Source: Candidatus Zixiibacteriota bacterium (GTDB lineage Bacteria > Zixibacteria > MSB-5A5 > CAIYYT01). Taken from it: DNA of 37,021 nucleotides. A program made the position numbers and the translations under genes. Numbering within the stretch: the first letter of the stretch is position 1; each line of letters begins with the position of its first letter. The stretch spans positions 1 through 37,021 of the forward strand of contig JADYYF010000140.1 in assembly GCA_020853795.1 (NCBI GenBank), written 5' to 3'. The notes under the pieces are model-generated. The model did not search any database. It saw nothing but the letters and a program-made list of their open reading frames with translations, and was not told the DNA's origin. Below are positions 29,326 to 32,792 of this stretch, piece by piece.

Positions 29326-31587
29326 CTACCCGACCCGCTCGGGTTTGTGGGCGGGATCGGCAGTGGCTTTGCGGCTGCGCAGCGAGTGGCCGGTGGCGAG
29401 GCCAAAGATGAACAGCACCAAAACCAGGATCCCGATGGCGAAGATCGTGTCGCCGGGAGCGCGCAGCCATTTGAAGACGGTGATGGCCGGCGAGTAAAGA
29501 AATTCGGCCGAGCGCGCGAACCAGTAGCCGTGACGCACCGACGCCCAGGTCTGCATGAAGCCGATCGGCAACAGACTGAGCAGCACCATCGTCATCAGGC
29601 CGATATTAATCGTCCAGAAGGAGAACTTGATGATGTTGTCCTTCCATTCCTGGCGGACGTAGAGCACGCGCAGGCAGAAGAGCATGAGGCCGAGTCCGAG
29701 CATACCGTACACGCCGAAGAGGGCGGTATGGCCGTGCACCGGCGTGGTGTTGAGACCCTGCATGTAGTAGAGAGCGATCGGGGGATTAATCATGAAGCCG
29801 AACAGTCCGGCGCCCACCATATTCCAGAACGCGACGGCGACGAAGAAATAGATCGGCCATTTGTATTTGGCGACCCACGGCGTCGCGCGCGCGAGGCGGA
29901 TATTGTCCCAGGCTTCAAAGCCGATGATCGTGAGCGGCACGACCTCGAGTGCGGAGAAGACGGCCCCGAGCGCCATGACGGCGGTCGGCGTGCCGGCGAA
30001 ATAGAGGTGATGCAACGTGCCGATGATGCCGCCAAAGAGGAAGATCGTGGTTGAGAAGATCACGGACGAGTTGGCGGTTTTGAGCCGGATGAGTTGCAGC
30101 CGCGCGAAGAGGAAGGCGATCACGGCGGTGGCAAAGACTTCAAAGAAGCCCTCGACCCAGAGGTGAATCACCCACCAGCGCCAGTATTCGGCCATCGATA
30201 AATGTGTGCTCTTGCCCCACATCAGACCGGCGGCATAGAAGGCGCCGATCGCGATCGAGGCGAGGAGGAACATCGTCATCAGCGGTTTCTGGTCGCCGCC
30301 CTTCCTGATGGCGATCAGAACATTGCGGCTGACAAGGTAGAGCCAGAGCGCCAGGCCGGCAAGCAGGGCGATCTGCCACACACGGCCGAGATCGAGGTAC
30401 TCATAGCCTTGATGGCCGAAGTAGAACCAGCTTGAGCCCGGCATCATGCCCTTCACCGAGAGCAATTCACCGGTCAGTGAGCCAACCACTACCAATACAA
30501 GCGCGCCGAAGAGAATGTTGACACCGAGGCGCTGGCCTTTTAGTTCAACGCCGGAGACAGCGGGGCCGATGTAGAGTCCGGCGGCAAGCCAGGCAGTGGC
30601 GATCCAGAAGATGCCGAGCTGCGTGTGCCAGGTGCGGGTGACGGCGTACGGCAGCCACTCCGCGAGCGGGATGCCGTAAAAGGCGTGGCCTTCGACCCCG
30701 TAGTGTGCCGAAATCACGCCCATGATCATTTGCACAAGGAACAGACCCGAAACGACCCAGAAGTATTTGATAACGGCCTTCTGCGACGGCGTCGGTTGGA
30801 AGCCGAACATCGGATCCTGCTCGGGGAGCTTTTCGGCGACGGCTTCTTTCTTCTGAGCGGCATGATACCAAACCAGCATGCCGATACCGGCCAGCAGCAT
30901 GATGATCGACATACCGGTATAGATCACAGCATCACTGGTTGGGACGTTATCGACAAGTTCCTCGTGCGGCCAGTTCGAGGTGTAGCTCATCTCTTCGCCG
31001 GGACGATTGGTTGATGCCGCCCAACTGGTCCAGAAGAAGAACGAAGCCATCTGCCGCAATTTGACCGGATCAGAGACCGCGCCCTTGGGGATGGCGTACT
31101 GCTCGTGGCCGTTGGCGAAGATGTCGGCGTAGTCCGCGAGATTCGACTCAAAGGCGCGGACGCGCACCGGATCAACGGTGATCGTTTTCGTTGCCGGATT
31201 GTACGAGTTGGTACGAATCAGGCTCTTGAGACGCGCCTGCAAGGCGGCCTGCTTCTCAAGATCGAGCTTGTCGTAGGCAACGGCAAAATCCGTGTTGGCC
31301 CAGTCGTTGAGAATGAACATGCACTCGCGATGGAGCCAGTCGGCGGTCCAATCGGGAGCGACATAGCTGCCGTGGCCCCAAATCGAGCCGACCTGCATAC
31401 CGCCCATCGCCTGCCAGACATTTTGCCCGGCAGTGATCTGACCGTGATCGATCATCACGGCTCCATCGGTAGCGACGACCTGATCGGGGATCGGCGGTTT
31501 TTCCTGATAAATCCGCAGTCCGGCCCAGCCGAGTACGGCAAAGGAGAGCAGGACGACAGCGGTAAACGCGATCCAAAGTTTCTTCAT
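29326..31587 (-). CDS. norB: Quinol-dependent nitric oxide reductase (single-subunit qNOR)
   Basis: This 753-residue heme-copper-superfamily enzyme reduces 2 NO to N2O with electrons from quinol. The N-terminal part (about 1-260) carries a membrane helix and a cytochrome-c-like fold without heme ligands, typical of qNOR. The catalytic half has about 12 helices. A low-spin heme ligand is H321 in TRTWHTQLG. The non-heme iron site is H475 and E479 in IHLWVEGFFEVFAT plus H526-H527 in GTLHHLYF. Heme ligands H618 and H620 are in PVHGHTALFG. All catalytic residues are intact, so it should be an active NO reductase. An ATG with GGAGG upstream follows the hemerythrin gene by 20 bases, so the two are probably one operon. 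Confidence 0.95.
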   Translation of the reverse strand: MKKLWIAFTAVVLLSFAVLGWAGLRIYQEKPPIPDQVVATDGAVMIDHGQITAGQNVWQAMGGMQVGSIWGHGSYVAPDWTADWLHRECMFILNDWANTDFAVAYDKLDLEKQAALQARLKSLIRTNSYNPATKTITVDPVRVRAFESNLADYADIFANGHEQYAIPKGAVSDPVKLRQMASFFFWTSWAASTNRPGEEMSYTSNWPHEELVDNVPTSDAVIYTGMSIIMLLAGIGMLVWYHAAQKKEAVAEKLPEQDPMFGFQPTPSQKAVIKYFWVVSGLFLVQMIMGVISAHYGVEGHAFYGIPLAEWLPYAVTRTWHTQLGIFWIATAWLAAGLYIGPAVSGVELKGQRLGVNILFGALVLVVVGSLTGELLSVKGMMPGSSWFYFGHQGYEYLDLGRVWQIALLAGLALWLYLVSRNVLIAIRKGGDQKPLMTMFLLASIAIGAFYAAGLMWGKSTHLSMAEYWRWWVIHLWVEGFFEVFATAVIAFLFARLQLIRLKTANSSVIFSTTIFLFGGIIGTLHHLYFAGTPTAVMALGAVFSALEVVPLTIIGFEAWDNIRLARATPWVAKYKWPIYFFVAVAFWNMVGAGLFGFMINPPIALYYMQGLNTTPVHGHTALFGVYGMLGLGLMLFCLRVLYVRQEWKDNIIKFSFWTINIGLMTMVLLSLLPIGFMQTWASVRHGYWFARSAEFLYSPAITVFKWLRAPGDTIFAIGILVLVLFIFGLATGHSLRSRKATADPAHKPERVG

Positions 31588-31607: not shown

Positions 31608-32246
31608 TCAATGCGCAGTCTGAGACTGGGATTTGTGGCCGTGCGCACAGGTGCAGCCGCCGGCAAGGATCTGGCGCTTGATCGGTTCGGCGGGGACGTT
31701 AAATTTGTTAGCCAGGCCAAGCGCCATTTCGAGGTAGCGCGTGTGCGTTCCCTCGCCCATGTCGTGCGCTTCAACATGTGTAAATGAAGCCTGCAGTCGC
31801 GACTGGTCTTCTTCCGTCAGCATGCGATCAGCCAGCGGAAAGAGAATCTGGTCCTCTTTCATAATGTGAGCGCGCAGCAGGCCGATGTAGTTTTGTGCGT
31901 TCTCACAGAAAGTTGTCACGGCGGCGGCATCACCGGCCGCGGCTTGCGGCAGGCTCTCTGCCATACCGCGGAGGAAAGAACGGCCGAGGTCGTGCTCGTG
32001 CAGCATCACGCCGACGGGGCCGTGCTCGCGCGGAGCGCCTTTCTCTTCGAGCATGACAAATAAGTGGTTCTCTTCCTTGCCGTGATGGCAGCCATCGGCA
32101 AAAGTGCGAATGAAGTCGATGAATTGCTCGGCCGTGTCGCGATCAACCTTGACGGCAGCGCGACTCTGCGTGACAAAGTGCTGCAAGCTGTCGAGAATCA
32201 CCTCAATAATGCGGTGCTCGTCACTGAGGATTTGGGTCGGCTTCAT
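31608..32246 (-). CDS. Hemerythrin-like (HHE) iron protein with Cys/His tail
   Basis: This 212-residue cytoplasmic protein has the four-helix hemerythrin HHE pattern: H11 in DEHRIIE, H54-H55 with E58-E59 and H61 in GCHHGKEENHLF, H83 and H85 in LHEHDLGR, and H127 with E131 in RAHIMKEDQILFP. These would bind a di-iron centre that senses or handles NO or oxygen. The C-terminal tail adds GGCTCAHGH (C198, C200, H202, H204), a possible second metal site not usual in the family. AGGAG lies six bases before the ATG. The promoter candidate at 32297-32325 overlaps a proposed Rrf2 operator. norB follows, which supports a role in NO detoxification, similar in context to YtfE/Ric-type iron-centre repair proteins. 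Confidence 0.9.
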   Translation of the reverse strand: MKPTQILSDEHRIIEVILDSLQHFVTQSRAAVKVDRDTAEQFIDFIRTFADGCHHGKEENHLFVMLEEKGAPREHGPVGVMLHEHDLGRSFLRGMAESLPQAAAGDAAAVTTFCENAQNYIGLLRAHIMKEDQILFPLADRMLTEEDQSRLQASFTHVEAHDMGEGTHTRYLEMALGLANKFNVPAEPIKRQILAGGCTCAHGHKSQSQTAH

Positions 32247-32294: not shown

Positions 32295-32318
32295 AAATCA
32301 CATCTACTTATCTCATTA
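32295..32318 (-). promoter_or_regulatory. Proposed Rrf2 operator at the hemerythrin-norB promoter
   Basis: AAATCACAT-N6-ATCTCATTA matches the perfect operator at the Rrf2 gene (TAATCGCAT-N6-ATGCGATTA) in 13 of 18 arm positions, with the same 6-base spacer. It covers the -10 and part of the spacer of the promoter at 32297-32325, where a bound repressor would block transcription. It is inferred only from similarity inside this window. Confidence 0.4.
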
Positions 32319-32325
32319 TGGTCAA
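32297..32325 (-). promoter_or_regulatory. Promoter candidate for the hemerythrin-norB operon
   Basis: On the minus strand TTGACC (32320-32325), a 17-base spacer and TGTGAT (32297-32302). The -35 matches 5 of 6 and the -10 matches 4 of 6. It lies in the gap between the Rrf2 and hemerythrin genes and leaves a leader of about 45 bases. Confidence 0.5.
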
Positions 32326-32334
32326 TGTATCGGG

Positions 32335-32760
32335 TCAAAGCTGCACCTTCTTCTCAATGAGATCGAGGAGTGAGGTTTCGTGCAGGAAGCCAAGATACTG
32401 CTCGCGGATCGACTTCCATTGGTGGTGCACGGCACAGGGTTCCGCTTCGTTGCAGAAGCCGCGGCCCATAAAGCAATTGCCCCAGCGTGAGATGTTATCA
32501 ATCGGGTCGACGACTTCGAAAAGCGATATCTCGTCCGCGGAGCGGGCAAGTCGGAAGCCACCGCCGAAGCCCTTCTGGGAGACAACCAGCCCTTCACCGG
32601 CGAGTGACTTCAGCAGCTTCCCCAAGTAGTTTTGTGGGGCACCGACCGTCCTGGCGATTTCAGCAGCGCCGGCGTACTTACCGGGGGCAAGTTTTGCCAT
32701 CTCCGCAAGGGCCATAACAGCGTGTATGCTTGATTTCGACAACATATAATCTAATCGCAT
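32335..32760 (-). CDS. Rrf2 family iron-sulfur transcription regulator (NsrR/IscR-like)
   Basis: This 141-residue regulator has an N-terminal winged helix (about 1-75), with the wing in QKGFGGGFRLAR, and a C-terminal cluster motif C96-x6-C103-x5-C109 with H112 three residues later. Such cysteines hold an Fe-S cluster that reports NO, iron or redox state. Spacing resembles IscR and NsrR but is not identical. The gene precedes a hemerythrin-like gene and an NO reductase, so NO sensing (NsrR-like) is the most likely role. A perfect inverted repeat covers its start codon and -10 element, which suggests autoregulation. The predicted transcript starts almost at the ATG, so the mRNA may be leaderless. 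An ATG five codons downstream (32743-32745) is an alternative start. Confidence 0.9.
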   Translation of the reverse strand: MRLDYMLSKSSIHAVMALAEMAKLAPGKYAGAAEIARTVGAPQNYLGKLLKSLAGEGLVVSQKGFGGGFRLARSADEISLFEVVDPIDNISRWGNCFMGRGFCNEAEPCAVHHQWKSIREQYLGFLHETSLLDLIEKKVQL

Positions 32761-32775
32761 GCCAATATGCGATTA
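32752..32775. promoter_or_regulatory. Perfect inverted repeat over the Rrf2 gene start (proposed operator)
   Basis: TAATCGCAT (32752-32760) and ATGCGATTA (32767-32775) are exact reverse complements separated by GCCAAT. The repeat includes the start codon of the Rrf2 gene (32758-32760) and its predicted -10 element (32764-32769). An operator for the Rrf2 protein itself is the simplest reading. A related repeat occurs at 32295-32318. Confidence 0.65.
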
Positions 32776-32792
32776 TACTATCGGCTTGTCAA
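32764..32792 (-). promoter_or_regulatory. Promoter candidate of the Rrf2 gene
   Basis: On the minus strand a perfect TTGACA (32787-32792), a 17-base spacer and CATATT (32764-32769, 4 of 6). A TATAAT sequence also occurs at 32772-32777 but is only 9 bases from the -35. The transcript would begin near 32757, at the start codon itself. Confidence 0.5.

Follow-up and report, generated by a model that had tools for sequence, protein, structure and literature searches.

The window, i.e., the whole 37,021-nt stretch of a Candidatus Zixiibacteriota contig that was analysed, encodes on its minus strand a 136-aa Rrf2-family regulator (32335..32745; PF02082, E=1.7e-27), a 212-aa hemerythrin-domain protein (31608..32246; PF01814, E=3.4e-22), and a 753-aa quinol-type nitric oxide reductase (qNOR/NorB; 29326..31587; PF22085 and PF00115, with orthologs behind the same genes). 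The regulator carries Cys91, Cys98, Cys104, and His107, as seen in an alignment of Rrf2 orthologs (A1) and a ligand survey. The qNOR gene starts 20 nt after the hemerythrin gene, whose product scored far below the RIC/YtfE cut-offs. The gene upstream of the Rrf2 gene is the 16S rRNA methyltransferase gene rsmI, which runs in the same direction, so that some read-through into the Rrf2 gene is possible. The mechanically called Rrf2 ORF starts at 32760; the MISKTG of the orthologs aligns to MLSKSS at 32745 (codon 32745-32743).

Dyads and promoters at the Rrf2 and hemerythrin-norB genes

Two inverted repeats, referred to below as operators 1 and 2, lie 5' of the Rrf2 gene and of the hemerythrin-norB genes, respectively. 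Operator 1 (TAATCGCAT-GCCAAT-ATGCGATTA; 32752..32775, minus strand) consists of two 9-nt arms that pair without mismatch across a 6-base spacer, as the preliminary description had claimed. The second repeat that it had proposed, operator 2 (AAATCACAT-CTACTT-ATCTCATTA; 32295..32318), was likewise present, with the same spacer length; on the minus strand it reads TAATGAGAT-N6-ATGTGATTT, and its arms equal those of operator 1 at 13 of 18 positions.

The Rrf2 gene is preceded by a sigma-70-like promoter on the minus strand (32764..32792), consisting of TTGACA (32792-32787), a 17-nt spacer, and CATATT (32769-32764). Operator 1 spans this -10 element and the leader, stopping 6 nt short of the start codon at 32745. 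The preliminary description had placed it over both the -10 and the start codon; the former holds, whereas the latter does not, because the orthologs begin at the equivalent of 32745. The probable hemerythrin promoter (32297..32325, minus strand) was read by inference as TTGACC (32325-32320), a 17-nt spacer, and a weak TGTGAT (32302-32297), and was not picked up by the consensus promoter scan. Operator 2 begins right after the -35-like TTGACC and spans the spacer and the weak -10-like hexamer, in agreement with its earlier assignment to the -10 of the hemerythrin-norB promoter.

Dyads of this kind are unremarkable. By chance, 0.16 perfect 9-N6-9 dyads are expected in the window and approximately 16 genome-wide, and a scan over spacers of 0-12 turns up 23 perfect 9-bp inverted repeats in the window. 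The dyads alone are thus weak evidence; their frequency and the match of operator 2 at only 13 of 18 arm positions would speak for two unrelated inverted repeats near promoters, and the case therefore rests on conservation.

Conservation of the sites within and beyond the class

Among 147 related genomes, 17 clear Rrf2 orthologs, the window's included, were identified by protein search, with identities of 44-69%. All 17 have a site directly before the Rrf2 start codon, with the consensus TAATnnnATATTGACATGYGATTA, in which the spacer is also conserved in most. Where a hemerythrin gene lies next door, nearly every class member has a second site before it, with the consensus TAATnGGATAAnnACATGCGATTA, and qNOR is next in line in most; G018 is the exception, no site being visible before its hemerythrin gene. 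The genus mate carries TAATACGATATGTAGATGTGATTT at the place of operator 2. With a matrix of orthologous hemerythrin-promoter sites (genus mate included, window left out), operator 2 scored 23.3 bits, compared with 8.8 bits for the highest-scoring unrelated position in the window. With the Rrf2-site matrix built without the window it scored only 9.5 bits, a level reached by chance at about 7 places per genome. At two loci with a more distant Rrf2 protein and a divergent hemerythrin gene (L025 and L026, from G039 and G021, respectively), the core CAT-ATTGAC-ATG is kept and the outer arms differ, as if the operator had drifted along with its regulator.

Scanning 84,980 species genomes yielded 71 relatives, nearly all from metagenome-assembled genomes, in Zixibacteria, Planctomycetota, Hydrogenedentota, Sumerlaeota, Omnitrophota, Spirochaetota, Myxococcota, Bdellovibrionota, Gemmatimonadota, and Riflebacteria (labels as in the records; single contigs may be misbinned). 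Outside Zixibacteria, 57 loci had upstream DNA long enough to be scored with a matrix built from the class sites only, and 40 of them exceeded 10 bits within 130 nt of the Rrf2 start, where chance would give 0.014 per region. The Rrf2 gene lacks a preceding site in several clade members; among four Bdellovibrionales of this type, two (L149 and L155) have one before an upstream hemerythrin gene instead. Operator positions 7-12 often become TATAAT in the distant phyla, so that operator and -10 are merged there, and across 57 Rrf2 sites, hexamers resembling TTGACA are over-represented 16-17 nt upstream of these positions. This geometry of operator, -35, and -10 suits a repressor that would block RNA polymerase.

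The specificity of the site was assessed using the degenerate pattern WAATNRNATANNNNCATGYGATTH with one mismatch allowed, which gave 36 matches in the 147 genomes, 26 of them at these loci, and 5 for a reversed control; matches at other places in the class fall mainly within genes and resemble chance. The 3.56-Mb genome of the window contains two matches, operators 1 and 2 only, so no further regulon member was found there at up to one mismatch, and none of its five Rrf2 paralogs carries a site of this kind. A looser search of the same genome gave a 3-mismatch match at C136. The strict dyad at 3 mismatches was too loose across the 147 genomes, most matches away from this locus resembling chance. 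The preliminary description had named conservation upstream of orthologs as one test of its proposal; the site recurs before the Rrf2 gene throughout the class set, before nearly all neighbouring hemerythrin genes, and in most clade members of other phyla. Given the conservation across phyla together with the matrix and pattern tests, chance dyads are refuted for operator 1 and, via its orthologs, for operator 2, and the probability left to this explanation is vanishingly small.

The same alignments bear on whether the dyad acts as an RNA hairpin or terminator, as might be suspected from a scan that labels 32775-32752 terminator-like. No covariation was detected, arm positions 5-7 are unpaired in 9-10 of 25 sites, and pairing does not rise above that of shuffled sequences. 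The spacer is conserved as well, and the start point predicted from the -10 falls inside the dyad. A hairpin was rejected for the lack of covariation, and we regard it as extremely unlikely.

The Rrf2 protein in relation to NsrR, IscR, and NsrR-Th

The regulator is a member of the Rrf2 superfamily according to PF02082 (96.6 bits; cut-off 30) and TIGR00738 (101.5 bits; cut-off 73.3). Most DNA-contacting residues of NsrR differ among Rrf2 proteins, which have the wing motif Lx3Gx6Gx2GGx2L in common (PMC9338935); the corresponding L48, G52, G59, G62, G63, and L66 are invariant in alignment A1, and the recognition helix, NYLGK, is the protein's own. Cys91, Cys98, Cys104, and His107 are also invariant in this alignment, and among the site-bearing members only two, both from Gemmataceae, lack the full Cys3-His set. 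In these two (L159 and L164), a single one of the three Cys remains and the His is gone, yet operator-like sequences are kept, followed by NnrS and by a broken-looking similar frame, respectively. Another Rrf2 protein of the window's genome (L207; G000:C160:17757-18155, plus strand) has the same Cys3-His pattern and is followed by cytochrome c and nitrous-oxide reductase (nosZ) genes; its promoter is without this operator and has ATCGGACT-N17-AGTCCGAT.

In a tree based on a short alignment with few reference proteins, all 53 site-bearing regulators fell into one clade of 63 (100/96); NsrR, IscR, the paralogs, and a Phycisphaerales group that has no site all lie outside it. The sites track this clade across phyla and through varied neighbourhoods, including loci without hemerythrin, making it very improbable that another transcription factor binds them and that the Rrf2 gene is a mere neighbour.

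Compared with NsrR (E. coli YjeB and S. coelicolor NsrR), the regulator shares the Rrf2 fold and three Cys, as well as a small NO-defence regulon with targets of the hemerythrin type (ytfE/dnrN), norB, nnrS, and hcp (PMC1274295). S. coelicolor NsrR also binds the promoter of its own gene (PMC9338935). Unlike NsrR, the window's Rrf2 protein belongs to a separate, supported clade (judged against two NsrR references in a short alignment). E. coli NsrR has C91, C96, C102, and Asp8, with no equivalent of His107; Asp8, a published cluster ligand of S. coelicolor NsrR (PMC5411485), is absent here, a hydrophobic residue or His occupying the aligned place, and His107 is found instead. The operator differs as well, in that TAATCGCAT-N6-ATGCGATTA shares only the inner part of its arms with the published NsrR consensus gATGyAT-N5-ATrCATc (PMC1274295). 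This consensus found no match at the locus with three mismatches allowed, which led to its rejection for the site and bears out the earlier remark that its arms are unlike NsrR sites, the spacer being different too. The NsrR model NF008240 gave 48.6 bits against a cut-off of 182, a failure that is weak evidence by itself because equivalog cut-offs are strict. The system thus appears to work like NsrR but is not established as NsrR, several of whose features it lacks.

The ligand spacing resembles that of E. coli IscR (C92-x5-C98-x5-C104-x2-H107), the first two Cys of the window's protein (C91-x6-C98-x5-C104-x2-H107) being one residue further apart. The Cys positions are cluster ligands in both IscR and NsrR, and His107 is one in IscR. 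In contrast to IscR, the gene does not lie beside Fe-S assembly genes, the recognition helix is NYLGK rather than SYLEQ, and the IscR model TIGR02010 gave 67 bits, below its cut-off of 207.55. Outside Proteobacteria, Thermus thermophilus NsrR-Th is likewise an Rrf2-type regulator of NO genes, acting on nitrite and NO reductase promoters (PMC5748679); its palindrome CTTGACCNNGGTCATGG is unrelated to the window's operator.

Genes behind further sites and the probable signal

The genes directly behind further sites at related loci encode hemerythrins, qNOR, NnrS (often with DUF1858), Hcp (hybrid-cluster protein), and a protoglobin, and are mainly NO-related, as expected of an NsrR-type NO-defence regulon. 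Respiratory operons were also found, namely cytochrome c-NarG nitrate reductase (L160, 4458-8391, in a Planctomycetota genome), COX2-COX1 (L137), and a cytochrome-c respiratory operon (L145). No Fe-S assembly (isc/suf) or iron-uptake genes were among those behind the sites examined. At target genes (L113, L114, L117, L121, L127-L129, L134, L143, L153, L158, and others), most operators are preceded, at a distance of several bases, by a T run that in many cases ends in TTG and is perhaps the -35; it is absent in the window.

NO is named here as the signal chiefly because the linked genes are for the most part those under NsrR in other bacteria (PMC1274295). The same regulator and operators could instead respond to iron, oxygen/redox, or Fe-S status, in the manner of IscR, RirA, and RsrR, with the NO genes controlled solely within a wider respiratory switch. 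The Cys3-His set (C-x6-C-x5-C-x2-H) resembles that of IscR, whose model outscored that of NsrR (67 vs 49 bits, both far under the cut-offs), the three respiratory operons are not detoxifying, and the two Gemmataceae members retain site-like sequences without the ligands. However, most linked genes are NO genes, and the sites examined lack Fe-S assembly and iron-uptake genes; we therefore consider such a signal unlikely.

The reading that we favour, and hold to be probable, is that of a cluster-dependent autorepressor acting on both operators, released by NO, and controlling hemerythrin and NO reductase. The 24-bp dyad TAATcgSAT-N6-ATGYGATTA would be the operator of the adjacent Rrf2 protein, probably a dimer with an Fe-S cluster on Cys91, Cys98, Cys104, and His107. 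The protein would sit on operator 1, over its own -10, and on operator 2, inside the hemerythrin-norB promoter, keeping RNA polymerase off both. NO would attack the cluster and cause the protein to let go of the DNA, and hemerythrin, NO reductase, and more repressor would be made until the NO is gone. The earlier proposal of one repressor for itself and the NO operon is supported by the conserved sites and the mostly NO-related linked genes, from which we infer Rrf2 binding, the cluster, repression, and NO as the signal. A switch common to the regulator and the NO-defence operon is very likely on these grounds.

Literature searches (subscription journals and regulon databases were outside their scope) found no description of the operator, and the half-site ATGCGATTA led to unrelated papers only. 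With somewhat less assurance, we favour the broader view that a separate Rrf2 clade from some ten mostly uncultured phyla constitutes a repressor that responds to NO, has Cys3-His ligands like those of IscR, and uses a 24-bp operator of its own. NO sensing would then have arisen a second time within Rrf2, or else the clade would have branched off early and had its cluster site re-tooled. Many uncultured lineages, including Zixibacteria, Planctomycetota, Hydrogenedentota, and Spirochaetota, would thereby gain an NO-response regulon open to direct testing. The operator would allow NO-linked genes to be annotated from the DNA sequence by itself, and the Cys3-His ligands are relevant to the way in which Rrf2 proteins select their signals.
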